From Streptomyces sp. NBC_01268 (GTDB lineage: Bacteria; Actinomycetota; Actinomycetes; Streptomycetales; Streptomycetaceae), in the NCBI RefSeq assembly GCF_036240795.1, contig NZ_CP108454.1, forward strand, positions 4,402,001 to 4,466,000: a stretch of 64,000 nucleotides of DNA. Direction: 5' to 3'. The notes under the pieces were generated by a model that was not told the DNA's origin, searched no databases, and was given only the letters and a program-made list of their open reading frames with translations. Position numbers and translations under genes: made by a program. Numbering within the stretch: the stretch's first letter is position 1; each line of letters starts with the position of its first letter. Positions 6,611-62,422 of the stretch are shown in pieces.

Positions 6611-7344
6611 TCCGCGCCTCCGCCGCGCAGCACGTAGCCGACCCCGCGCACGGTGTGCACGAGGCGCGGCTCGCCGCCCGCCTCGGTCTTGCGGCGCAGG
6701 TACATCACGTACACGTCCAGCGAGTTGGAGCTCGGCTCGAAGTCGAAGCCCCACACGGCCTTCAGGATCTGCTCGCGGGTCAGCACCTGCCGCGGGTGCG
6801 CGAGGAACAGCTCCAGGAGCGTGAACTCGGTACGGGTCAGCTCCACCGGCCGCCCGCCCCGGCTCACCTCGCGCGTGGTCAGGTCCATCCGCAGGTCCTC
6901 GAAGGACAGCACGTCGCCCTCCGGCCGCGGCCCGGCCTGCGGCGCCGCGTACGAGCTGCGGCGCAGCAGGGCGCGGATCCGGGCGAACAGCTCGTCCAGC
7001 TCGAAGGGCTTCACCAGGTAGTCGTCCGCGCCCGCGTCGAGACCGGTGACCCGGTCGCCGACGGTGTCGCGGGCGGTGAGCATCAGGATCGGCACGGTGG
7101 AGCCGGACGCCCTGATGCGGCGGGCGGCGGTCAGGCCGTCCATGCGGGGCATCTGGACGTCGAGGACGACGAGGTCGGGGGCGTACGTCTCCATCCTGGC
7201 GAGCGCGTCGAGCCCGTCGACGGCGTCCTCGGTCGCGTACCCCTCGAAGGCGAGGCTGCGGCGCAGCGCCTCCCGCACGGCGGGCTCGTCGTCCACGATG
7301 AGGATGCGCTCGGCGCGTTCGGCTTCGTTCTGCTGGCCAGTCAT
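6607..7344 (-). CDS. OmpR-family response regulator (MprA-like)
   Basis: A 245-residue protein with a receiver domain ([14 protein letters not shown], phospho-acceptor Asp in [10 protein letters not shown], switch Thr in LMLTARD, Lys in LVKPF) and a C-terminal OmpR/PhoB winged helix ([35 protein letters not shown]). It follows the HtrA-like protease gene after 20 bp and overlaps the kinase gene by 4 bp, so protease, regulator and kinase probably form one operon. The pair likely senses envelope or protein-folding stress and controls the protease gene, by analogy with MprAB and CssRS. Confidence 0.9.
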
Positions 7345-7364
7345 GGGGCCAGCGTCCCATGTGT

Positions 7365-8474
7365 TCAGGCGGCACCGCCCGAGCGCAGGCTGTCCAGGTC
7401 GGCCTTGAGGGTGTCGACCGGGATGGCGAATCCGAGGCCGACGCTGCCGGCCGTGGAACCGCCCGAGGAACTGGGCGAATACATGGCCGAATTGATTCCG
7501 ATGATCTCGCCGTTCATATTGATCAGCGCGCCGCCGGAATTACCGGGATTGAGCGAGGCGTCGGTCTGGATCGCCTTGTACGTGGTCTTCGAGGAGCCGG
7601 TGTCGCCGTTGAACTGCTGCCCGCCGAACTCGAACGGCCACCCCTGGCGCGGGTCCCACTGCTGCCCCTGCCCCTGGCCCTGCCCCTGACCCTGGTCCTG
7701 GCCCTGGCCCTGGCCGTCCTCCTTGGCGACGGTCACGTCGCGGTCGAGGGCGGAGACGATGCCGCTGGTGACGGTGCCGGTCAGGCCCTCGGGGGAGCCG
7801 ATCGCCACGACCTCGTCGCCGACCCGCACCTTGGACGAGTCGCCGAGCGTCGCCGTCTTGAGGCCGGACGCGCCCTCCAGCTTGATCAGCGCCAGGTCCT
7901 TGTCCGGGTCCGTGCCGACGACCTTGGCGTCGTAGCTCTTGCCGTCGGAGGTCTGCACCTTGATCGACGAGGCGCCGGAGATGACGTGGTTGTTGGTGAC
8001 GATCTCGCCGTCGCCGGTGATGATCACGCCCGAGCCGGTGGACTTGCCGGACGTCGAGCTCGCGGAGATCTCCACGATCGACGGGGAGACCGCCTGGGCC
8101 ACCCCGGCGACCGTGCCCTTGCTGCTCGCCGACACGTTCGTGCCGCTCACGGAGCCGGTCGCGGAGGCGGCGCCGTCGGAGGTCCAGCGCTCGACGAGGG
8201 TCGCGGTGCCGCCGCCGACCGCCGCGGCGGCGATGGCCACGGCCGCCAGGAGGCCGACGCCGCGCTTGGCCCGGCGGTGCGGGCCGGGAGCGGGCGCCGG
8301 GGAGGCGAAGGCCGGCTGCTGCGGGGGCGGCGGCGGGCTGTAGCCGCCGGCCGGGGTGTGCCCGCCGGACGGCCAGACGGTGGTGCCCGGCTCGGTGCTG
8401 ATGGGCTCGGCCGGGTCGTACGGCGGCCGCGGCGGGTAGTACGGCTGCTCCTGGGGCTGCTGGTTGTCCGTCAT
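7365..8474 (-). CDS. HtrA/DegP-like S1C serine protease lacking a PDZ domain
   Basis: A 369-residue protein. A Pro/Gln/Tyr-rich cytoplasmic N-terminus (about 1-66) is followed by one membrane anchor ([18 protein letters not shown]) and a trypsin-like domain. The catalytic triad is visible: His in VTNNHVI, Asp in DKDLALIKL, Ser in NPGNSGGAL. The chain stops soon after the protease fold ([11 protein letters not shown]), so the PDZ domain usual in HtrA/PepD proteins is absent. A Gly-Gln repeat at roughly residues 250-272 interrupts the protease domain. It is first gene of the operon with the response regulator and kinase. The expected role is quality control of exported proteins. Confidence 0.88.
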
Positions 8475-8508: not shown

Positions 8509-8584
8509 CTGAGGGCGGGGTGAGAAGCCCGACAGAAGTGCGTATGCCCGATATAAAGACCCGGCGGGTCCTGCTCGCCGCGGC

Positions 8585-51404: not shown

Positions 51405-51478
51405 GCCTCCTTAGCTCAGCTGGCCAGAGCACCGCTCTTGTAAAGCGGGGGTCGTCGGTTCGAACCCGACAGGGGGCT
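51405..51478 (+). tRNA. tRNA-Thr (anticodon TGT)
   Basis: A complete cloverleaf of 74 nt: acceptor GCCTCCT pairs with AGGGGGC (51471-51477, one G-U) plus discriminator T; anticodon stem CCGCT/AGCGG with loop CTTGTAA (anticodon 51439-51441); T-arm GTCGG TTCGAAC CCGAC. CCA is not encoded. It is the integration target of the island that begins within its 3' half. Confidence 0.95.
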
Positions 51479-51502
51479 CGTCGGCAGAGGGCCGGCCCGG
51501 GG
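51432..51502 (+). repeat. left attachment-site copy (71-bp direct repeat, overlaps tRNA-Thr)
   Basis: It starts at the 5' strand of the anticodon stem (CCGCTCTTG) and runs through the tRNA 3' end into the terminator. It is identical to 55962-56032. Similarity continues imperfectly to about 51533, where the copies share TTTCGCGTGGTC. Confidence 0.9.
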
Positions 51503-51524
51503 TTGTCTCCCGGGCCGGCCTTTT
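51490..51524 (+). terminator. terminator of tRNA-Thr
   Basis: GGCCGGCCCGGG at 51490-51501 pairs exactly with 51509-51520 around a 7-nt loop and is followed by TTTT. The right repeat copy carries a near-identical hairpin at about 56021-56050. Confidence 0.85.
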
Positions 51525-51538
51525 CGCGTGGTCCACGC

Positions 51539-51559
51539 CGTGCCACCACCGTGCCAGAA
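51539..51559 (+). repeat. left integrase-arm-like motif
   Basis: Two GTGCCA hexamers at 51540 and 51551 are one helical turn (11 bp) apart in the frame CCGTGCCAC-N3-CGTGCCAGA. The same motif recurs at 55844-55864 near the other end. Confidence 0.6.
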
Positions 51560-52040
51560 GCCACCCGACCGCCACCTTCGCGGCTCCCCCCAACTCCGCC
51601 GACCGCGATCCCCGCCCGACCTCGCCCGCGAGGTGCTCCTCCGGTTGTCCGTCACGGCTGAAGGAACGGCGCGCGGGTCGGGCGTTGATGCGGCGCAGGC
51701 AGGCGATGAGCTTCCGGGCACGGGCGGCGGCGTTGAAGCCCAGGCTTTGAGAGGGGGCGCGGTAAGACTTTCTCTACTTCATCAAGGCACCGGCTGCGCT
51801 CCGCTCCGCCGGGCGGGCTTCCCGGCTCCGCTCGGGGCGCCGCTCCTGCCTTCGGCCCGCTCCGCCCCCGCTGCGCCGACGCCCGCCCCTGCAAAACGGG
51901 ATAGGCCCAAGGGCATGAGTCGAGCCCCAACCACGTCCGATACCCAAGGTCACCGACATGCCTCCGGCGGGGGCCTCAGGCTCCGGGATAGCGGAGGCAC
52001 CGTGCGCGGGTGCCGGCCGGTGGGGTGGGGCGGCGGGGAA
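51560..52040. other. non-coding island DNA, left part
   Basis: No reading frame here has protein-like composition on either strand. The stretch 51795-51895 is dense in short complementary GCTCCGC/GCGGGC-type words. It may be the relic of a lost gene such as an integrase, but nothing recognisable remains. Confidence 0.4.
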
Positions 52041-52189
52041 CTCCCATCCCGTCTGCCGTCGACCCAGGCAGAGCCGAGCAGACACGGCACCGGGCGTCCA
52101 GGTCGTTCGTACAGTGGCGCGCTCCACCTGGACGCCCGGCACCGCGCCCGCTCCGCATACGTGTGGGCCGACGGCAGACGGGATGGGAG
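52041..52189. repeat. nested perfect inverted repeats (21-bp outer and 14-bp inner arms)
   Basis: The outer arms 52041-52061 and 52169-52189 are exact 21-bp complements beginning CTCCCATCCCGTCTG. The inner arms 52090-52103 (CCGGGCGTCCAGGT) and 52126-52139 are exact 14-bp complements around a 22-nt loop. The structure ends 37 bp before the DUF6414-like stop codon. Confidence 0.8.
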
Positions 52190-52226
52190 CTGGGGCGGTT
52201 CGTGGGGAGCGTCCCCGTACGGAGGC

Positions 52227-53240
52227 TTAGCGCAGCACGGGCGCGAATCCGCCTGGCCTGGGAATAGATCGATACACCGCGAACGGGATCAAGGAAAATC
52301 CGGGGTGCTGGGGAAGGTCAATAAAACCAATCCTGCCGAGGCTGCGCATCTGTGAGTTCATAACCTCCGCGAAAAGACCACGACTCATTACCCCTCCATC
52401 ACTCATGAAGTTTTGATCGGGAAGCTCCTTCTCCTCCGTCCCGTAGCTTCCAATGCTTCCCATGATTGTCAATTCCTGGGGCTCTGCACCGTAGCGGGCA
52501 AGAAGAATGTCGGCCTCGCTGTCGAGGTACTGCCGCCCCTCTTGAAGGCGCGCACTGATCAATACATCCTTCGCCGGATTCAGGTTGATGTGCAGTCCGG
52601 GAGTGAAGACTCCCCTGGAAATCTGAACGAAGGATCGTAGCGTGGTTCTATTGACTCCGTCGATAGATGGGAATTCGGGAATCAAATCCTCAAGCTCGGC
52701 CGGGGCTGCTGTGGGTGCATCCTTTGGTGCGCGAGGTTGGTTGCCCGGCCTGCTCTTTGCCTGCCCCTGCTTCCCTCTTGCTCCGGCCGAGACGGATGGT
52801 GTGTCGCCGGGAGAAAACCCCAAGCCTGCCAGCCCGGCATTCACGGAGGCGAAAGCGGAGAAGGCGGCGGCGACGTAGCGTGCATCAAAAAATGACCCTA
52901 CAGCCGTAACCCTGACTAGCGAACCAGGTGGCAGGGATTTCTTAATCTCGCCAGAATTCCACTTCTCGATGTCGGAAACTTCCAGTGAAATATCGCTTAG
53001 GATACCTTCCGACTCCAAGGCGTCTTCAAGCATAGGGAACAGCGCGTCCCCCAGAGACTTGTTCGTGTACTCCTCACCGGAGGAGCCCTGGAAGTGTTGA
53101 GCGGCCACGCGGGGGCCGACGGTAGTCCTCTTCTCCGTGCGCTCAGTCAGTCGAGATTCTTCTGCGACTCCGCCGTCGAGTTGGGCGAGCATTGCGCGCA
53201 CTTTGTCGGTGTCGACATAGAGGAATTCTCGCAGAATCAC
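52227..53240 (-). CDS. DUF6414-like protein encoded by the island
   Basis: A 337-residue protein. GTG 53240 is chosen because GGAGG lies 5 nt upstream and it gives MILREFLYVDTDKVRAMLAQ, which matches the start of DUF6414 proteins as I recall them; a TTG at 53252 would add four residues. The middle (about 140-190) is a Gly/Pro/Lys-rich linker, with alpha/beta segments on both sides. Codon use is unlike the neighbours, with AGA, CTA, GTA, TTT and ATT codons and a visibly lower GC content. Such proteins are often found on mobile DNA, and their function is unknown. The HTH gene is divergent. Confidence 0.68.
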   Translation of the reverse strand: MILREFLYVDTDKVRAMLAQLDGGVAEESRLTERTEKRTTVGPRVAAQHFQGSSGEEYTNKSLGDALFPMLEDALESEGILSDISLEVSDIEKWNSGEIKKSLPPGSLVRVTAVGSFFDARYVAAAFSAFASVNAGLAGLGFSPGDTPSVSAGARGKQGQAKSRPGNQPRAPKDAPTAAPAELEDLIPEFPSIDGVNRTTLRSFVQISRGVFTPGLHINLNPAKDVLISARLQEGRQYLDSEADILLARYGAEPQELTIMGSIGSYGTEEKELPDQNFMSDGGVMSRGLFAEVMNSQMRSLGRIGFIDLPQHPGFSLIPFAVYRSIPRPGGFAPVLR

Positions 53241-53699
53241 AGGGGCCTCCAACTCGGTGAGTGGGGCCGGGGTATGCGCCGAACCGCGCCCGTGTATGCC
53301 GTTTCAGAGGGTCGTGACAGTGCCGGGATGCTGCGGATCTGCGGGAAACGCGCCGCGGTTGCGCGAGGCACCGATCCACCAGCCCGGCTTTGATGCCGTG
53401 GTCCGTTCACTGCGCGACCCCGGAGGAGGCATCTCCCACGGGGTGTCGCGCCCGGCCGGAGTCGGTTGTCGACGCCGGCCCAAGCCAGCGTGCTCGCCCG
53501 GCGCCTCAGCCTCATCCAGAGTCAACGCCTGTCCGCGACGTCCCCGTACACACCTGCCGGCCAGCGTGCGGACGAGGCACCATCTCGTTCGCATCGGTGC
53601 AGCAGGGAGCGAGGTCGATCACAGACGTGTTGCCAGCCATCCTCTTAGATCTGGGGATTGCGGTTGGCTGAATCTGCTACGGACCTACCCGAAGGCAAC
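53241..53699. other. divergent spacer between DUF6414-like and HTH genes
   Basis: I find no protein-like frame. GGAGG at 53246-53250 (minus strand) belongs to the DUF6414-like gene. The right end becomes A/T-richer towards the HTH promoter. No clear operator dyad is seen. Confidence 0.4.
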
Positions 53700-53712
53700 T
53701 AAAATCCTCCCC

Positions 53713-54255
53713 ATGTCTCGCGACAGACGATCGACACCGGAACGATATACCTGGTTGCCACACAAGGCCGTACGCGCATGCCAGCGCCTCTCAAAGAGAC
53801 ACTCCGAACTGTTCCAAGGGGCGCATCATTTTGCGATCGACGTCGCCGCTTTCCTCGCCATCATGGCATTTCCGGCGCGAGGCACGCGGAGAAGCCGCCA
53901 AGACATTCTCGATGGATTGACTCTCGTAACGGAGATGAAAGTCCTTACAGAGGCCGCGGAGGAACGGCTGTTACGCGAGGCGCGACGTCGTGGAATTACC
54001 TTCCAGGAAATCGCCGAGGCTATGGCAATGCGAAGCAGGCAGGCTGCTGAGCAGCGATTCATTCGATTGGTCGGGGGGAGTGGGCCGGCGGAACAAGCCC
54101 AGATGAATCGTCGCCGACGAGAACGATTTGGGTATGAGATTGACGCTCAGGGCAGACATGAAGATCACATGTGGAACTTGGGGGCGGAATTTCGGTCCCT
54201 AGCCCTTGAGTCTCTCCTGCCGGATGAGATCGCGACAGAGGAGGAGCGTCCCTGA
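53713..54255 (+). CDS. HTH protein encoded by the island, with a TTA codon
   Basis: A 180-residue protein starting MSRDRRSTPERY. A helical region contains EERLLREARRRGITFQEIAEAMAM followed by RSRQAAEQRFIRL, a helix-turn-helix of a type seen in short streptomycete proteins (IAEALGLRSRQAAEQRY-like). TAAAAT at 53700-53705 ends 7 nt before ATG 53713, a leaderless arrangement with an unusually A-rich -10. Codon 87 is TTA (53971-53973), which would make translation depend on the bldA tRNA. Base composition is lower in GC than flanking genes. A role in regulating the divergent gene is inference. Confidence 0.68.
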   Translation: MSRDRRSTPERYTWLPHKAVRACQRLSKRHSELFQGAHHFAIDVAAFLAIMAFPARGTRRSRQDILDGLTLVTEMKVLTEAAEERLLREARRRGITFQEIAEAMAMRSRQAAEQRFIRLVGGSGPAEQAQMNRRRRERFGYEIDAQGRHEDHMWNLGAEFRSLALESLLPDEIATEEERP

Positions 54256-54847
54256 GCTGCCCAGCTCCCATGCCGACCTGATGAAACACGAAAAGCGCTC
54301 CGGCTATCGCCGTCATCTGTTCGGGCGATGCGAATTTAGAGCATGCCACAAGGAACGCTGCTTGGGCCGCAATCCGCACACTCCCGGCCCGCCCGAGACG
54401 TTTTGCCCATTCTTGAACATTCCTGCACACCAGCACATTTCCCCGCTTCGGCGACGATTTAAGTTCCCGTGCAGAAAGAATGCCACTCAACAGAGTGGTC
54501 GACCTCGGTCGAAAAATGGTTATCCTGTGCCATACCAACCCATCGCCGCGAAGACATGCAGGTGGCGGCCGCAGTGATCTCAGCGAGAACCGCCCTAACC
54601 GTCAACGAATGATTGACTGCGTCGATGCAGCTGGACCGTGCCGCGGAGGCCAGGGGGCCTGGTGATATCGGAGTCTCCCAAGCAGCTTCCTCAGGACCTG
54701 TGGGCTGTGCCATGTCTGGCTGTGCACCCCTGCCGTGCTTGTATCTGCCTTCAGTCGCAGGTTCGTAGGTCGCGGCCCATTCGCGGACGGGAAAGAGTGC
54801 CGAAGGTGTCAGTGCGCTTCCGACCTGCTGAAACGGGCGCCGTGCAC

Positions 54848-54864
54848 AGGGCCTCCGGAGCCGT
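54848..54864 (+). other. possible tRNA-Arg(CCG) anticodon-arm remnant
   Basis: AGGGC, loop CTCCGGA (anticodon CCG) and GCCGT make a five-base-pair stem with one mismatch, close to the anticodon arm of streptomycete tRNA-Arg(CCG) as I remember it. No acceptor, D- or T-arm is present. Confidence 0.3.
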
Positions 54865-54871
54865 GTGCGGA

Positions 54872-54901
54872 GAAGCCCCCGGGCGTTGACCCGGGGGCTT
54901 C
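54872..54901. terminator. perfect 12-bp stem-loop inside the island
   Basis: GAAGCCCCCGGG at 54872-54883 pairs exactly with 54890-54901 around a 6-nt loop. No intact gene ends next to it, so it may be left from a lost tRNA or coding gene. Confidence 0.6.
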
Positions 54902-55106
54902 GTGTCGTTTGGGGCGTGGCTGCTATCCGAAGGCCGCCGCCGGAAGGTGTGGACCCTCTTCCTCTGTGGGGGGTCGGAGGGATCGGGCATCGGCAAGCGA
55001 TGACCAGGTCAGAGGTCATCAGCTGGATAGTGCCCCAGGGCGGCTCAAGAACCAGGGGAAGAAGTAGCCTGCCGAAGCTGTCCGTGCCGGCGTCTATAGT
55101 CCGGGC

Positions 55107-55787
55107 ATGTTTCCGCAGCCAGTTGAGGGGGCCGTGGGCCCCTACGACGCGGGGTATTTCCCTCGCGTGGAGATGCGCATGCATCCGGCCGACGAGGCCA
55201 TCACCGAGGCCGTCGCCAAGCTGGGCGGTGCCCCCCTGTGGCTGGAGGAGCCCTGCTGGCCTCTGAACCCCCGCACAGGTGAGCCGCTCGACTTCATCGG
55301 GCAGATTCCGGTCCCCGTCGAGCCCGGCGACGAGCTCCGCATGGCGTATCTGTTTCTGTCGTACGAGGACTACGAGACCGGTGGCATGGATCCTGAGGAC
55401 GGAGAGTCCGTGCTGCTCATCCAGCCCGGCGGGCGGATACCCGGATTCGCCACCATCGGGCCGGTCGGGACCAGGGGACGTTCACTCTTCGAGTTCGACG
55501 CCGAAGACGAGCAGGTGCCGGTGGAGTTCCGGATCGAGATGCGGTCGGTCTCCGAGGAGCAGGAGCGGTACCTGGAGAGGAACGGGTGCTTCGATGTGGA
55601 CAACTACATCGGAGGGCGAGCGAACTACCGGATGTGGGCCGGCGTCGAGGCGCCGTGGCGGTTCTTCTTCGCCTTGGCCTGTACCGGCGACACAGGGCCG
55701 TACTTCCTCAACTTCGGTCACGGCGCCGGGTATGCCTACCTCAGTCCTGACGGTCTGGAAGGGCGCTTTGGCTGGGACGCGGCCTAG
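55107..55787 (+). CDS. YwqG/DUF1963-like protein
   Basis: A 226-residue acidic protein. KLGGAPLWLEEPCWPLNPRTG and DFIGQIPVPVE near residues 35-72 and the following YLFLSYEDYETGG match the DUF1963/YwqG pattern (GGxPxWxQ, then I/L-x-Q-I). TATAGT at 55095-55100 ends 6 nt before ATG 55107, a leaderless arrangement. Its GC content is closer to the core genome than that of the other island genes. YwqG proteins have no established function; they often occur near toxins and in mobile regions. Confidence 0.72.
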   Translation: MFPQPVEGAVGPYDAGYFPRVEMRMHPADEAITEAVAKLGGAPLWLEEPCWPLNPRTGEPLDFIGQIPVPVEPGDELRMAYLFLSYEDYETGGMDPEDGESVLLIQPGGRIPGFATIGPVGTRGRSLFEFDAEDEQVPVEFRIEMRSVSEEQERYLERNGCFDVDNYIGGRANYRMWAGVEAPWRFFFALACTGDTGPYFLNFGHGAGYAYLSPDGLEGRFGWDAA

Positions 55788-55843
55788 TGCCGGCGGTGGC
55801 GCATCAGGGCGGGGCGCACTGACGCTCGACGGCAGTCCGCGAC

Positions 55844-55864
55844 CGTGCCACATTCGTGCCAGAT
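55844..55864 (+). repeat. right integrase-arm-like motif
   Basis: CCGTGCCAC-N3-CGTGCCAGA, identical to the left motif outside the three spacer bases, with GTGCCA at 55845 and 55856 (11-bp spacing) and the same orientation. Confidence 0.6.
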
Positions 55865-55961
55865 CGAGCGGGGAGCCACGGGGAACGAGGGGCGTTGACG
55901 GGTCCTGGGCCGTTGATAAGCTCCTCGATCATCAGCGCGTGTCAGGTGCATTGCCACCCTC

Positions 55962-56032
55962 CCGCTCTTGTAAAGCGGGGGTCGTCGGTTCGAACCCGAC
56001 AGGGGGCTCGTCGGCAGAGGGCCGGCCCGGGG
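55962..56032 (+). repeat. right attachment-site copy (71-bp direct repeat with tRNA-Thr 3' half)
   Basis: Identical to 51432-51502. It contains the anticodon, variable, T and 3' acceptor segments of tRNA-Thr but no 5' half, so it is not a functional tRNA. The downstream similarity extends with one substitution and one insertion to about 56064. Confidence 0.9.
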
Positions 56033-56084: not shown

Positions 56085-56351
56085 ATGGCTGTGGGGATCG
56101 TGTTGCTGGTGTTGGGGGTCGGTGCCGTGGGCTGGGGGGCCATGTTCCTCTTCAACCTGCGTGGTGCGGCGGACAAGGCGACGGCTCGTCGCAACGCCGT
56201 GCGTGCGGTGACCGCGGCGCGGGTCATGGACCTGAGCCTCACGGAGCCGTCCCGGTTCGGTGCCTGGTTCTTCCGGCTCCTGGGCGGCATCGCGCTGCCC
56301 GGGGGGCTGTTCCTCGGTTTCATCGGGCTGGCGTTGACGCTCTCGGAGTGA
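56085..56351 (+). CDS. small two-helix membrane protein
   Basis: An 88-residue protein with an N-terminal helix (VGIVLLVLGVGAVGWGAMFL), a basic loop (RGAADKATARRNAVRA) and a second helix (LGGIALPGGLFLGFIGLAL). ATG 56085 follows GGGGAGGGG; an in-frame GTG or ATG at 56070 is less well placed. It lies just outside the right attachment repeat, so before the insertion it was next to tRNA-Thr. Function unknown. Confidence 0.72.
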   Translation: MAVGIVLLVLGVGAVGWGAMFLFNLRGAADKATARRNAVRAVTAARVMDLSLTEPSRFGAWFFRLLGGIALPGGLFLGFIGLALTLSE

Positions 56352-56366
56352 GCGGGGTCCGGGGGA

Positions 56367-56396
56367 GGCCGGTCGGGGAGGGCCCCGGCCGGCCTT
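56367..56396. terminator. 13-bp stem-loop between the small membrane protein and the NRPS gene
   Basis: AGGCCGGTCGGGG at 56367-56379 pairs with 56384-56396 with a single G-U and a 4-nt loop. It separates two convergent genes. Confidence 0.65.
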
Positions 56397-56403
56397 CGGC
56401 GTG

Positions 56404-59400
56404 TCAGGGCTGGGTGTCCAGGTCCGATTCGATGCGGGTGACCAGGTCCGTGAGGGTGGCCGCGAAGAGGTCCATGACGGTGAGGGGGACGCCGAAGCGG
56501 GACTTCAGGCGGGCTGCGGTCTTCATGGCCAGGAGGGAGTCGCCGCCCAGGTCGAAGAAGTTCTCGTCCAGGTCCGGGGCGTCGATGCCCAGGAGGGTGG
56601 CCACCACTTCCGATACCTCCGCAGCGACCTGGGAGGCGTGGTCGTGGAGCTGGGGGGTGTGCGCGGGGGGCGTGGGGAGGGCGGGTTTGTCGATCTTGCC
56701 GCTGGGGGTGCGGGGGAGGGCCGGAAGGGGGGCCCAGCGGGTGGGGATCAGGTGGGCGGGGAGGTGGGTGGCCAGGGACGCGCGGAGCGCCGTGGTGTTC
56801 GCGTGGGACGGGGTGACGTAGGCCGTCAGGAGGTCGTCGCGGACGACCACCACCGCCTCGTCGACCTCGGGGTGCGCCACGATCGCCGCCTCCACCTCGT
56901 GCGGTTCGATCCGGTAGCCGCGGACCTTCAGCTGGTCGTCCGAGCGGCCCGCGTACTCCAGGATGCCGTCGGCGCGGAAGCGCGCCACGTCGCCGGTGCG
57001 GTACATGCGGGCGCCCGGCTCGGACGCGTACGGGTCGGGGAGGAAGCGTTCCGCCGTCTGCCGGGGGGCGGCGCGGTAGCCGCGGGTCACCTGGGTGCCG
57101 CCGATCCACAGGTCGCCGAACACGCCGACCGGGACCGGGCGCAGGGTCGCGTCCAGGACGCGGGCGGTCGTGTTCGCCACGGGGACGCCGACGGGGATCA
57201 CCTCGTCGGGGACGTCGCCGGCCCGGATCGCGTGCCAGGTGCAGCCGACGGTCGTCTCCGTCGGGCCGTACTCGTTGATGACGCGTGTCGACGGGGCGTG
57301 GGTCTTCCACGGGGTGAGCATGTGGCCGTGGAGTTGTTCGCCGCCGATGACCAGGTGGTCCGCCGCCGTGGCGAACTCCCGCGGGGTCAGGGCCTGGTCG
57401 AGGAGCGCCAGGTGGGACGGGGTCAGTTTCAGGAGGCCGAAGCCGCCCCGGGCCGCGGACGCCACCAGGTTCTCCGCGCTGCGTTCCTTCGCCCCGCACG
57501 TCACCGGTTCGCCCGCCGCCCACACCGGGAACACCGAGGTCACCGGCAGGTCGAACGCCATCGACGAGTACAGCGGTGCGCCCGCGCCGCGTGTCGAGCG
57601 GTAGGCGTCCCGCGCCCACGTCACGTAGTTGACGATGTTGCGGTGCTCCACCTGCACGCCCTTCGGCAGGCCCGTCGAGCCCGAGGTGAAGATGACGTAG
57701 GCGAGGGTCGTGGGGGGCAGGTTCAACTGGAGGTTGGTCGCGGGGAGTTCGTGCATGCCGTCCGGGGTCGGTGACAGCGTGGGGGTGTCCGGGAGCGGGT
57801 GCTCCGACACCGCCAGGTGGGCCCCCGCCGCCTTCAGGAGTGCCGCGTGGCGGGGGGCCGGGTCCGCGGGGTCCAGGGGGAGGTAGGCCGCGCCCGCCTT
57901 GAGGATCGCCAGGAGGGTGGTCAGCAGGGGCGGGCCGCTGCGGAGGGCCACGCCGACCACGTCCTCCGGGCGGACGCCCCGGGCGATCAGGTGCCGGGCC
58001 AGGCGGTTCGCGTCGGCGTTGAGCTCGGCGAAGGTGAGGGTGCGGCCGTCCGCGTCGACCACCGCCGGCGCGTTCGGACGGGTGCGGGCCACCCGCTCGA
58101 TCAGCTCGTGCAGCAGCGTGGCCTCGGGGGGTGCGGTCGGGCCCGTCGCGTAGGACGCCAGGGCCGTCCGCTCCGGGGCGGGGAGCAGGTCCAGGGCGGC
58201 CAGCGGGGTGTGCGGGGCAGTCGTCGCCGCCGTGAGGAGGGTGCGGAAGCGGGCGGTGAGGCGGTCCGCCGTCGCCCGGTCGTACAGCGCCGTCGCGTAC
58301 TCCAGCTCGCCCGTCACCGTCCCGTCCGGCCGGCGGACCAGGTCCAGGGTCAGGTCGAACTTCGCGGTGCGGCGCGGTACGGGGAGGGGTTCGGCCGTCG
58401 TGCCCGCGACCCGGAACGGCGTGCGGGGGGCCGGGGTGTAGGTGAAGGAGGTGTCGAAGAGGGGGTTCTCCGTGAGGGAGCGGTCCGGGGACAGCCGGTC
58501 CACCACCCGGTCGAACGGCACGTCCTGGTGGTCCACCGCGTCGAGGACGGCCGCCCTCGTCCGGGACAGGAACTCGGTGAAGGGCGGGTTGCCCGTCGTG
58601 CGCGTGCGGATGGGGAGCTGGTTGGCGAAGTAGCCGATCGTGTCGGCCAGGGCGGGGGTCGGGCGGGCCGCCGCCGGCGTGCCCACGACGACGTCGGCGC
58701 CGGGGGCGTGGCGGGACAACAGGGCCTGGAACGCCGCCAGGTAGACCGTGAAGGGGGTCGTGCCCCGGTCCGAGCCCAGTTCCTCCACGCGGGTCACCAG
58801 GTCGGCGGGCAGGGTGAACGCGATCGCGTCGCCGTCGGCGGTCCGGGTCTTCGGGCGGGGGCGGTCCGTGGGGAGGCGGGAGCGGTCCAGACCGGTCAGG
58901 GTCCGCTGCCAGTGGTCCAGCTGGGCCTCGCCCTCGGGGGAGGCCAGCCACGTCTGCTGCCACGACGCGAACGCGCGGTAGGGGGTGGGGAGTCCGGCCG
59001 CGAGGCGGGGAGCCGACAGCTCTGCGGCCAGGATGTCCAGGGACAGGCCGTCGCAGGCCATGTGGTGGATCGACACCACCAGGGCGTGGTCGTCCTCGGC
59101 CAGGCGGACGAGCTGCGCGCGGAAGGGGAGCTCCTCCGCCAGGTCGAACGGGCGCTTCGGCTCCGCCGCCAGCAGTGCCGCGAGCGCCTCGGGGGAGTCG
59201 GCCGCGGAGAGGGTGAACGGGGCGTCCGGGACCGGGTCCAGGACCGGGGCGGGTGCGCCGTCGACCACGGGGAAGCGGGTCCGCAGGGGCTCGTGGCGGT
59301 CGAGGACGGCGCGCAGGCGGTCCCGCAGCGCCTCCACGTCGAGCGGGCCGCGCAGCCGGACCGCCCACGGTTCCACGTACGCGTCCTGCTCGGGCGCCAG

Positions 59401-61200
59401 CCGGTGCAGGAACCACAGGGCGCGTTGGCCGAAGGTCGTCGACGGCGGAGTCGCGGGGGCATCGGGCGCGGGGGGCACGGGCAGCGGGGTGGTCGTCCGG
59501 CGGCGGGGGAGGGCTGCCACCGCGGCGACCGTACGGGCGCGCAGCACGTCCGCCGTGGACGGAGCCGCCCCCGTCGCCTGCCGCAGCTCCGACACCAGCC
59601 GGGCCGCGGTGAGCGAGTCCACGCCCAGGGCGACCAGGTCGTCGGACGTGCCCAGGCCGTGCAGGCCGAGGGCCTCTTCGCAGACGCGGACCAGCAGGGC
59701 CTCGTCCTGTGTCGCCGGGGCCACGTACGGGGCCCGGTGGGTGGGGGAGGGGGCCGGGAGCGCGCCGCGGTCGACCTTGCCGTTGCTGTTGAGCGGGAAC
59801 GTGTCCAGGAGGACGTAGTCGGACGGCAGCATGTAGTCGGGGAGCGTGGTGCGCAGGTGCGCGGTCAGGTCCTCTGCCGGGGCCGGGTCGCCGGTCAGGT
59901 ACGCGACCAGCTGCTTGCCGCCCGCCGGCGTCGTCCGGGGGTGGACGACCGCCGCCCGTACCCGGGGGTGGGCCGCGAGCCGCGCCTCGATCTCGCCCAG
60001 CTCCACCCGGTGTCCGTTGATCTTCACCTGGTGGTCGGCCCGGCCGAGGATCTCCACCCGGCCGTCCGGCAGGACCCGGCCGAGGTCCCCGGTCCGGTAG
60101 CGGCGCGCGCCGCCCGGGGCCGGGACGAACGTGGCGGCCGTGAGCCCGGCCCGGCCGACGTACCCGTCCGCGAGGCCGCTGCCCTCGATGTACACCTCGC
60201 CGACCAGGCCCGGTGCGGCGGGCGCCGCGGTGGCGTCGAGGACCGTGACGCGTTCGCCCGCGAGCGGCGCCCAGTCCGTCAGCCGGCCGTCCGGGCCGAG
60301 CCGGGAGACGGCCGACCAGATGGCCGTCTCCGTCGGGCCGTACAGGTCCCACACGGGGACGCCGGTACGGGCCAGGCGCTCGGCCAGGTCCGGCGGCAGG
60401 CCCTCGCCGCCGCACCAGACGCGGAAGCCGGCGGGCGGCGCCCAGCCGGAGTCGAGGAGCAGGCGCCAGGTCGCCGGGGTCGCCTGCATGAGCGTGGCGC
60501 CGTCGGCGAGGAGTGCGGCGAGGCGGCCGGGGTCGCTCGCGTCGGCGCGGCCGGCGACCACGACCGTGCCGCCGGCGAGCAGCGGCAGGAACAGTTCGAC
60601 GACCGAGATGTCGAACGCCGCCGTCGTCACCGCCACCAGCACGTCGTCCGCGTCGAGTCCGGGCCGGTCGGCCAGCGCCGCGAGGGTCGCCGTCACCGCC
60701 GCGTGGCGGACGGCGACGCCCTTGGGGCGGCCCGTGGAGCCGGACGTGTACATCAGGTAGGCCAGGCCGGAGGCCGAAGCACGGGAGGGGGCCGGGGCCG
60801 GGTGGGTGGTCGTCAGGTCGGAGAGGCGTGCGGTGCCGGTTCCGGACGGGGCCGTCGCCGCCTCGCCGGTCGCGTCGGTCACCACCAGGGCGGCGCCGGA
60901 GTCGGCGAGGACGTAGGCGATGCGGTCCGCCGGGTGGCCCGGGTCGAGGGGGAGGTAGGCGGCGCCTGCGCGCCACACGGCGAGCAGGGCGACGATCAGG
61001 TCCGCCCCGCGCTCGACGCAGACGCCGACCACGTCGCCGGGGCCGACCCCGCGCGCCGCCAGGCCCGCGGCGACGCGGGCGACCCGATCGTCCAGCGCGG
61101 CGTACGTCAGCGCCTGCGTGCGGTCGCGTACGGCGAGGGCGTCCGGGCGCCGGGCGGCGGCCTGGGCGACCCGGTCGGGTACGGGGCGGGCGTCGCTCAT
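56404..61200 (-). CDS. bimodular nonribosomal peptide synthetase, A-T-C-A-T, no thioesterase
   Basis: A 1598-residue protein. A1: core motifs LMYTSGSTGRPKG near residue 148, FDISVVELFLP, LYGPTETAIW, RTGDLGRV. T1: GVDSLTAARL, phosphopantetheine Ser near 527. C: HHMACDG active site near 713. A2: FTSGSTGLPKG near 1173, FDLPVTSVFP, NEYGPTETTVG. T2: FFDLGGDSLLAMK near 1553, then the end. No epimerisation, methylation or release domain. By hand the A2 pocket reads D-L-T-K-V-G-E-V-G, closest to Asn codes. The A1 pocket reads D-I-V-A-W-G-L-I-W, with no confident match. GAGGAG precedes ATG 61200. The KAS III-like gene ends 14 bp upstream. Confidence 0.92.
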   Translation of the reverse strand: MSDARPVPDRVAQAAARRPDALAVRDRTQALTYAALDDRVARVAAGLAARGVGPGDVVGVCVERGADLIVALLAVWRAGAAYLPLDPGHPADRIAYVLADSGAALVVTDATGEAATAPSGTGTARLSDLTTTHPAPAPSRASASGLAYLMYTSGSTGRPKGVAVRHAAVTATLAALADRPGLDADDVLVAVTTAAFDISVVELFLPLLAGGTVVVAGRADASDPGRLAALLADGATLMQATPATWRLLLDSGWAPPAGFRVWCGGEGLPPDLAERLARTGVPVWDLYGPTETAIWSAVSRLGPDGRLTDWAPLAGERVTVLDATAAPAAPGLVGEVYIEGSGLADGYVGRAGLTAATFVPAPGGARRYRTGDLGRVLPDGRVEILGRADHQVKINGHRVELGEIEARLAAHPRVRAAVVHPRTTPAGGKQLVAYLTGDPAPAEDLTAHLRTTLPDYMLPSDYVLLDTFPLNSNGKVDRGALPAPSPTHRAPYVAPATQDEALLVRVCEEALGLHGLGTSDDLVALGVDSLTAARLVSELRQATGAAPSTADVLRARTVAAVAALPRRRTTTPLPVPPAPDAPATPPSTTFGQRALWFLHRLAPEQDAYVEPWAVRLRGPLDVEALRDRLRAVLDRHEPLRTRFPVVDGAPAPVLDPVPDAPFTLSAADSPEALAALLAAEPKRPFDLAEELPFRAQLVRLAEDDHALVVSIHHMACDGLSLDILAAELSAPRLAAGLPTPYRAFASWQQTWLASPEGEAQLDHWQRTLTGLDRSRLPTDRPRPKTRTADGDAIAFTLPADLVTRVEELGSDRGTTPFTVYLAAFQALLSRHAPGADVVVGTPAAARPTPALADTIGYFANQLPIRTRTTGNPPFTEFLSRTRAAVLDAVDHQDVPFDRVVDRLSPDRSLTENPLFDTSFTYTPAPRTPFRVAGTTAEPLPVPRRTAKFDLTLDLVRRPDGTVTGELEYATALYDRATADRLTARFRTLLTAATTAPHTPLAALDLLPAPERTALASYATGPTAPPEATLLHELIERVARTRPNAPAVVDADGRTLTFAELNADANRLARHLIARGVRPEDVVGVALRSGPPLLTTLLAILKAGAAYLPLDPADPAPRHAALLKAAGAHLAVSEHPLPDTPTLSPTPDGMHELPATNLQLNLPPTTLAYVIFTSGSTGLPKGVQVEHRNIVNYVTWARDAYRSTRGAGAPLYSSMAFDLPVTSVFPVWAAGEPVTCGAKERSAENLVASAARGGFGLLKLTPSHLALLDQALTPREFATAADHLVIGGEQLHGHMLTPWKTHAPSTRVINEYGPTETTVGCTWHAIRAGDVPDEVIPVGVPVANTTARVLDATLRPVPVGVFGDLWIGGTQVTRGYRAAPRQTAERFLPDPYASEPGARMYRTGDVARFRADGILEYAGRSDDQLKVRGYRIEPHEVEAAIVAHPEVDEAVVVVRDDLLTAYVTPSHANTTALRASLATHLPAHLIPTRWAPLPALPRTPSGKIDKPALPTPPAHTPQLHDHASQVAAEVSEVVATLLGIDAPDLDENFFDLGGDSLLAMKTAARLKSRFGVPLTVMDLFAATLTDLVTRIESDLDTQP

Positions 61201-61214
61201 GCCGTCTCCTCGCT

Positions 61215-62234
61215 TCACTGCGCGGGTGTCGTCGCGGCGGGCGTCCACGCGGGCGGTTCGACCACTTCGAGTACGGCGCAGCCGTAGCTGAAGCCGACGC
61301 CGCTGCCGCACAGGGCGACGAGGTCGCCGGGGCGCACCGCTCCGGTCTCCAGGAGGTGGGTCAGTCCGCCGAACTGGTTCGTCGTGCCCATGTGGCCGAC
61401 GGTGCGGCCCCAGTCCCAGGTGGTCCGCTCCGTGCCGATGCCGAGGCCCTTGCGGAACTCCTGGTCGACCATGTTGGCGCCGATGTTGGGGAACACCCAC
61501 CGCGTCACGTCGTCGGGCGTGGCGCCCGCGTCGGCGAGGGCCTGGTCGATGGTGTCCCGCTCGGTCTCCGCCATCGAGCGGAGCATCGGGAGCAGGCGCT
61601 TGCGGTGCGCCATCAGGAAGGCGCGCCGGTCGGGGAAGTCCTTGGGGTCGGGCGGGGGCGTCGCCGTGAACCGGCCGTCGCCCTGTACCGCCGTCGACAG
61701 GAGGCGCAGCGGGCCGGGGCCGTGGTGCAGGACGAGCGCCGAGGCGCCGTCGGCGTCCACGCTGCCGGGGTCGAGGCGGTAGCGGTTCACGCCGGGGCCG
61801 CCGTGCCGGTCGGCGGTGGTGAGGAGGGCCGCCGTGCCGGGGCCGGCCGCGGTCAGGTAGGCGGCGGAGAGCTGCAGGGCGGCGAGGGCGCCGTTGCAGG
61901 ACTGGCGTACGTCGACGGTGAAGGCGCCGCGCGCCAGGGTCCTGCCCTGCACGTAGGAGGCGGGGACCACGTCGTCGGGGCCCTGCGGGGTGCTGCCCGC
62001 GTGGGCGTGCAGGACGATGGCCGCCTCGTCGACCGCGGCCCGGCCGAGGGCGGCGGTGCCGGCCCGGGCGGCCAGGTCGACGGGCTCGGTGTCCTCGGCG
62101 GAGGAGACCGACACGTAGCCGTGCGCCTCGGCGAGTTCGGGGTCGTACCGTCCGTCGGCGATCGCCGTCGTGACGTCCTCGGTGCTCCCTGTCGCGAGCG
62201 CACAGGACAGCACATGGATACCGGTCCACCGCAT
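61215..62234 (-). CDS. KAS III-family (FabH-like) enzyme with rearranged His/Asn
   Basis: A 339-residue thiolase-fold protein. The nucleophile lies in DVRQSCNGALAAL (Cys113). Where FabH has the catalytic His (PHQAN), this protein has Asn250 (FPNIGAN), and where FabH has the catalytic Asn (GNTSAA), it has His281 (VGHMGTTNQ). The C-terminal LCGSGVGFSYGCAVLE glycine-rich end is normal. Such KAS III relatives in metabolite clusters can be acyl transferases instead of condensing enzymes. It is the first gene of an operon with the NRPS and may load, transfer or release an acyl group. ATG 62234 has only a weak ribosome-binding site. Confidence 0.82.
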   Translation of the reverse strand: MRWTGIHVLSCALATGSTEDVTTAIADGRYDPELAEAHGYVSVSSAEDTEPVDLAARAGTAALGRAAVDEAAIVLHAHAGSTPQGPDDVVPASYVQGRTLARGAFTVDVRQSCNGALAALQLSAAYLTAAGPGTAALLTTADRHGGPGVNRYRLDPGSVDADGASALVLHHGPGPLRLLSTAVQGDGRFTATPPPDPKDFPDRRAFLMAHRKRLLPMLRSMAETERDTIDQALADAGATPDDVTRWVFPNIGANMVDQEFRKGLGIGTERTTWDWGRTVGHMGTTNQFGGLTHLLETGAVRPGDLVALCGSGVGFSYGCAVLEVVEPPAWTPAATTPAQ

Positions 62235-62422
62235 GCTCAACCCCCAGTCTTGGCACCACGGTTGTGGACAGCGGCGCCGACTATAACCCGGCCTCCGGTG
62301 GTCGGGGGAAGAGTGTCGATCTTCGCGGACGCCGGGAGGGGTGTGGTCAACTAGGGCTCTGATATGGCCATTTGGATGCAATGGGGCTCGATCAACGGCT
62401 GAAATAGAGCGGAGTTGACCTG

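Follow-up and report, generated by a model that had tools for sequence, protein, structure and literature searches.

How did a 4.5-kb island with two identical attachment (att) repeats and no integrase come to lie in a tRNA-Thr gene of Streptomyces sp. NBC_01268? The island lies in a stretch of 64,000 nucleotides (contig NZ_CP108454.1, positions 4,402,001 to 4,466,000; hereafter the window) of a host genome of 8.5 Mb in a single contig. At a probability of about 0.85, we consider it a deletion derivative of a pSAM2-type actinomycete integrative and conjugative element (AICE) specific for tRNA-Thr(TGT), resembling a cis-mobilisable element (CIME). This reading was chosen because both ends and the internal order of the island match those of tRNA-Thr AICEs and because similar losses recur in other Streptomyces. 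Compared genomes and loci carry G and L numbers, and the features of the island are collected in Table 1.

Boundaries and content of the island

The island is real and well bounded. An earlier reading of the letters alone (the sequence-only reading) had described an exact 71-bp tRNA-Thr repeat that encloses three genes and no recombinase, and the coordinates and profile searches agreed with it. The exact repeat did not extend further upstream, and its length excluded a chance origin. With mismatches allowed, the repeat covered 93 nt at 94% identity with a spacing of 4530. The second tRNA copy was partial, scoring 18.8 bits for RF00005 against the Rfam gathering score of 29. Two further matches to the tRNA region were found in the host genome; they were tRNA-like, 79–81% identical, and stopped short of the terminator.

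The GC content of the island was 63.9%, compared with 72.1% for the window. The DUF6414 gene and the gene of the helix-turn-helix (HTH)-like protein had 57–58% GC. Third-position GC (GC3) was 63.5% for DUF6414, 59.7% for the HTH gene and 84.6% for the YwqG-like gene. Close relatives of the island proteins carried Streptomyces names.

In a Pfam profile search of the host genome, no PF00589 or PF00239 match fell within the island. PF00589 matched at four places (0.94, 3.23, 3.84 and 5.61 Mb), of which the one at 5.61 Mb fell short of the cut-off, and PF00239 matched at two, both outside the island. Two TraB/FtsK queries and three Rep queries gave no match in the island, and no Xis match was found there. 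A functional AICE carries int, rep and traB between its att sites, and an integrative and mobilizable element (IME) carries its own recombinase; the island showed neither set. It has kept attL and attR and lost its integration and transfer genes, as CIMEs have.

Table 1. Features of the island and its target gene (positions in the window)
Feature	Position	Strand	Basis or remark
tRNA-Thr (TGT), integration target	51405..51479	+	ARAGORN; RF00005 64.5 bits
attL core, tRNA 3' half + 23 bp, 71 bp, identical to attR	51432..51502	+	sequence comparison
Left arm, two GTGCCA copies	51538..51558	+	
Stretch from left arm to block A	51566..51761	.	expected place of int and AICE backbone
Block A, putative sti-type single-strand origin	51762..51900	+	pIJ101 similarity, conservation, orientation
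Block B, conserved long hairpin	51955..52212	+	outer arms 52041-52066/52164-52189; inner arms within 52073-52103/52126-52156
DUF6414 gene	52227..53252	-	PF19952, E 1e-28, 101.2 bits against gathering score 25
180-aa helical protein, weak HTH-like matches	53713..54255	+	profile searches
DUF1963/YwqG-like protein	55107..55787	+	under Pfam cut-off
Right arm, two GTGCCA copies and conserved tail	55836..55886	+	part of the 99-bp right-end query
attR core, 71 bp, identical to attL	55962..56032	+	sequence comparison

Integrase-bearing relatives at the same tRNA

The earlier reading had proposed to look for larger, integrase-bearing relatives that share the core, and these were found in G342, G209, G292 and G015. 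These integrase-bearing elements were inserted at tRNA-Thr(TGT) and had attR copies of 48 bp (98–100% identity); the inner or second att copies in G015 and G292 were 43 bp. The four Thr-type integrases were 89–100% alike over 381 residues, each accompanied by Xis.

The left end of the island was 80–83% identical over 133–147 bp to the left ends of L215, L227, L228 and element 2 of G015, and the shared part covers both GTGCCA arms. In tRNA-Thr AICEs that carry an integrase, the left arm has the same position and overlaps the stop codon of int. The right end (the 99-bp query) matched in 182 of 384 genus genomes, among the matches listed mostly through its first 50–60 bases; the best matches were in G370 (92%) and G342 (90%), and G015 had 82%.

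L215, the G342 locus, encodes Phage_integrase, RepSA and FtsK/TraB by Pfam, and this predicted gene content identifies the G342 element as a pSAM2-type AICE. Its order is Int-Xis-Rep-...-TraB-GntR-block A/B-cargo-right arm-attR. Blocks A and B sit downstream of the backbone and ahead of the cargo in L215, L227 and L228, and further AICE loci agree. The island order, attL-noncoding block-cargo-attR, is the AICE order minus Int, Xis, RepSA and TraB; the part from Int to the regulator is gone. G292 carries a tandem of a full AICE and a mini element.

A conserved noncoding block

Within what had been described as non-coding DNA of the island, we found a conserved noncoding block of about 450 nt (51762-52212). 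In 50 aligned copies, conservation started near 51760 and ended near 52210, with little beyond. The block, composed of A and hairpin B or of A and hairpin C, was placed between AICE backbone and cargo; in some elements, hairpin block C replaces block B. This block is the most interesting by-product of the analysis.

The block A pattern TCTCTACNTCATCAAGGCACC, with at most one mismatch, was present in 56 of 295 genus genomes, although one match at least (L150, within a coding gene) is due to chance; the reversed pattern used as a control gave zero among the matches listed. Beyond chromosomes, the pattern matched 19 plasmid records and 0 phage records. Block A was 72% identical over 123 bp to pIJ101 7273-7383 (E 2e-11). 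The pIJ101 rep frame lies on the opposite strand, carries HUH and tyrosine motifs and has its end at 8581, 1.2 kb from the block A match. Block A was opposite to rep in all 24 loci with distinct A sequences, and likewise in pIJ101. The single-stranded origin sti is placed downstream of rep in pIJ101 in passages of PMC4170104, PMC11985553 and PMC9761944. Block A is therefore best described as a putative sti-type single-strand origin (sso), with which its similarity, position and orientation relative to rep fit. It resembles sti in lying downstream of rep and inverted relative to it, but the similarity is only 72% over 123 bp, and block B had no convincing match in pIJ101. In ICEBs1, an sso helps the integrative and conjugative element (ICE) persist after excision and transfer, as part of PMC4595007 describes.

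Block B covaries strongly. In 34 sequences of hairpin B, 94.3% of cells paired, and 61 cells changed on both sides compared with 23.4 in shuffles. None of 500 shuffles had as many two-sided changes, and slid structures gave 0 to 8. One result went against this: further pair types were no more numerous than in shuffles, 498 of which (out of 500) had as many or more, because the exchanges are few and recurrent. No Rfam family reached its gathering score over block B; only the tRNA and msiK matches passed. A mir-3622 match over hairpin B on the minus strand (E 7e-4) was rejected, as it scored 35.8 bits against a gathering score of 78. The noncoding block would define a likely AICE single-strand origin together with a base-paired partner hairpin that Rfam does not cover at gathering score.

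Integrase-less mini elements in other genomes

Similar losses were surveyed in 60 sources, namely 58 fetched loci, G015 and the window; two of the 60 fetched loci (L258 and L270), shorter than 5 kb, were left out. A tRNA/att-bounded interval was obtained from 27 sources, giving 33 intervals in total, and the other 33 sources gave none. A right arm was present in 23 intervals; the other ten had none within 900 bp of attR. Nine of the 23 right-arm elements had a full-length integrase (L214, L215, L216, L227, the first of L228, L250, L254, L264 and the second of G015), and all nine carried A, B or C. The other 14 lacked a complete integrase: L217, L219, L220, L221, L223, the second of L228, L229, L241, L249, L251, L263, L268, L269 and the window. 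Two scores were set by hand. L216 was re-scored as full, its fragment score having come from antisense matches, and L269 as incomplete, since its frame has no integrase N-terminus and runs into block B. Some survey loci had been picked for tandem arms, which biased the sample towards minis; 40 regions taken down the ranking gave nine right-arm elements, six of them without a complete integrase.

A, B or C was retained in 11 of the 14 minis, and no Rep, TraB or Xis query matched any of the 14. In the minis checked, PF00589 covered C-terminal parts only, or nothing among the matches listed (the genome of L269 was outside this check). The exception was L251, whose 263-aa frame has most of the catalytic domain.

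Comparison with full elements indicated that int breaks at differing points in the minis compared. Their left deletion ends differ, so the deletions look independent. In several minis the right ends clustered close to block A, some of them within it. Block A or B is itself cut by the deletion in L221, L241 and L217; the backbone losses of these three stop close to or inside A or B, as if at a deletion hotspot. Two pairs shared their left ends: L219 and the second of L228 (84% over 954 bp), and the second of L220 and L223 (84% over 503 bp). Spread of minis with one and the same junction was considered and set aside: int breaks at different points in L220 and L223, and the L219/L228 pair did not settle it.

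A short open reading frame (ORF) that encodes no more than the catalytic end of a tyrosine recombinase was observed in L228 (16486-16896, oriented), L219, L217, L220 and L251. Its core of about 62–64 residues was 70–91% conserved among minis that occupy different tRNAs, and it stood beside attL. Since the N-truncated integrase of L269 ends in this core too, the short ORF looks like a relic of one integrase type.

A resident AICE in the host

The host has a second AICE, at tRNA-Pro(CGG) (L274, G000:C1:3828000-3847000), with Int, RepSA and TraB. Its RepSA and TraB were 87% and 83% identical to those of L215, and its block B was 92% identical to that of the island. Neither an Xis match nor a second (right) att copy was found in this stretch. 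The three clear tyrosine integrases of the host matched none of the four Thr-type references at E 1e-7; the sub-threshold fourth place was outside this comparison. With no Thr-type integrase found in the island's own genome, excision can probably not be lent to the island now, unless a Thr-type AICE comes in. The resident AICE could lend transfer and replication functions, and mobilisation of the island in trans is possible in principle.

Origin of the island and alternative explanations

On the deletion-derivative reading, an AICE would have inserted when Int recombined attP with the 3' end of the tRNA. The backbone from int to the regulator would then have been lost, with the ends, the putative sso (A), the hairpin (B) and the cargo remaining. 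The island would now be inherited with the chromosome. For it to leave, either a Thr-type Int/Xis would have to arrive in trans, or an incoming AICE would have to insert beside it and carry it in cis; the G292 tandem suggests the latter route.

Several points weigh against this origin. No int remnant was found at 51566-51761, where profile scores were not above controls. A colinear DNA alignment to L228 (64% over 131 bp) had looked suggestive of a remnant there, and the profile test was negative: with a profile of 23 related Int C-termini, this stretch stood at noise level among 500 random locus pieces, whereas int-bearing pieces reached up to 130 bits. The blastx matches in the same stretch were proline/alanine-rich noise, equal to shuffles. 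The 71-bp att identity exceeds the 43–48-bp copies of the relatives and leaves the crossover point unfixed. Descent of all parts from a single AICE is not proven, and the island could have been assembled stepwise. In addition, no empty site bearing the right flank of the window was found in a genome sample that held no conspecific.

Could the island instead be an active satellite of AICEs, keeping what it needs in cis (att, arms, sso and hairpin) and borrowing Int/Xis, Rep and TraB? Its intact ends and arms and identical att copies would suit such a life, as would the retention of A, B or C by most minis, the occurrence of minis in many genomes and at several tRNAs, the G292 tandem with a full AICE, and a resident AICE that could supply RepSA and TraB. 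Passages of PMC3218068 also report that excision of the Frankia AICE Faln1739 was detected despite its truncated int. We nevertheless regard an active satellite as unlikely, as no Thr-type integrase was found in the island's own genome and the mini deletion ends differ. The deletions that cut into A or B (L221, L241 and L217) speak against the block being under strict selection. No two minis had a proven common deletion junction, and no double-strand origin turned up in the island, where no search was aimed at one. The broader proposal, that integrase-less mini-AICEs are widespread small satellites mobilised in trans, kept by a portable cis module made of a sti-type sso and hairpin B or C, and using a helper's Int, RepSA and TraB, appears doubtful to us. 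Minis that moved in trans would count as satellites of double-stranded DNA (dsDNA) conjugation. Of the two fates that the sequence-only reading had offered, decay through a presumed internal deletion was well supported; mobilisation in trans was not shown, none of the three clear tyrosine integrases of the host matching the Thr type.

Two independent events offer another explanation, in which an AICE arrived and later either left or decayed, whereas the YwqG-like gene, with other parts, would be ordinary chromosomal genes trapped between the att copies. The YwqG-like gene has the more host-like codon use (by GC3, compared with DUF6414) and has relatives of 83–97% identity in other Streptomyces. 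It lies, however, inside the right arm and attR, and A/B followed by DUF6414 is an AICE arrangement known from other loci. We consider this explanation very improbable.

The island most likely belongs to a known kind, the CIME-like AICE remnant, within a wider class of stripped AICEs. Cis transfer by accretion with an ICE is the defining idea of CIMEs, according to part of PMC5704250. XSAM1, which sections of PMC4891641 describe as a CIME beside pSAM2 in Streptomyces ambofaciens, is 42 kb. The island shares with CIMEs and XSAM1 the loss of integration and transfer genes and the retention of attL and attR, and the full AICE and mini in tandem in G292 are a further likeness. It differs from XSAM1 in its 4.5 kb and in that no full element adjoins it at its site. 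With pSAM2-type AICEs it shares att ends, arms, the A/B block and the cargo position, but it has no int, xis, rep or tra. Defective AICEs (DAICEs) and AICE remnants have likewise lost int and rep, but in the passages of PMC9513070 and PMC3218068 that treat them, DAICEs are detected through TraB. Since the island has no TraB, a TraB-based survey would miss it. Stripped AICE derivatives are present in Streptomyces chromosomes, and surveys that look for TraB or for three hallmark genes would overlook them.

Cargo genes

The gene labels of the earlier reading held to different degrees. DUF6414 was confirmed, the HTH label had weak matches only, and YwqG stayed below threshold. The cargo is variable: a sequence search found DUF6414 in 8 of 392 genus genomes (the own genome included, two marginal). 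By profile, it was present in 17 of 293 genomes of the order, 16 of them over the cut-off. Judged from the homologue consensus, which opens with MILREF, the gene probably starts near 53240.

DUF6414 neighbourhoods were examined at 12 distinct loci, the window among them. The gene was within about 15–85 nt of block B or C in seven: the window, G173, S. fulvorobeus, S. flaveus, S. alfalfae, S. antimicrobicus and Streptomyces sp. D2-8, where the match to block C is a 20-bp piece only (L281). Int, Rep and TraB were visible in five of these (G173, S. fulvorobeus, D2-8, S. alfalfae and S. antimicrobicus). In G157 and G360, block C was about 560 nt from the gene. In Streptomyces sp. NBC_00083, A, B and C are all absent and the gene adjoins tRNA-Arg and a fragment of an integrase, and in S. 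turgidiscabies and Murinocardiopsis it abuts no block. From these neighbourhoods, DUF6414 looks like position-locked cargo. DUF6414 genes were convergent with hairpin B or C and abutted its 3' end in L277, L278, L280-L282, L285 and the window (52212-52227).

The term DUF6414 was found in no paper in a literature search. Profile comparison gave weak OB-fold (oligonucleotide/oligosaccharide-binding) matches, which did not settle the function. Our working guess is a nucleic-acid-binding accessory protein, possibly defensive. PADLOC gave a single weak match on the cargo, Cas6f (E 0.03) on the HTH protein. A homologue of the HTH protein (69%) sits 2.6 kb ahead of the right arm in L247.

Integration site and flanks

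Empty sites had also been proposed as a check, and they were found for the element family, not with the right flank of the window. The post-tRNA sequence of G004 is 85% identical over 81 bp to the DNA that comes after the last attR of G015, and it does not match the DNA behind G015's own tRNA. The post-tRNA DNA of G030 and G012 matches G292 1.2 kb past the last attR. These comparisons indicate that unoccupied sites exist for the family.

Among 61 genomes compared, second partial tRNA copies were seen downstream of tRNA-Thr in several relatives. A survey of the site gave 29 readable loci (28 relatives and the own one) of 30 tried. An integrase was at most 1.5 kb downstream in 6 of the 29, and msiK was upstream in 22. 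Judged from these loci, the tRNA-Thr site is an integration hotspot. To the left of the tRNA in the window comes an ABC-transporter ATPase that we read as msiK; Rfam found an msiK RNA motif upstream.

The right flank of the window had long matches only in G098 and G068 and a shorter one in G103, and the tRNA was seen at none of them. The right-flank gene was not present in the ~1.5 kb after the tRNA in the 29 loci. The region right of attR (56085-62259) begins with a small membrane-protein gene, rare among the relatives with long matches in 2 of 198 other genomes, and continues with very long frames that look nonribosomal peptide synthetase (NRPS)-like.

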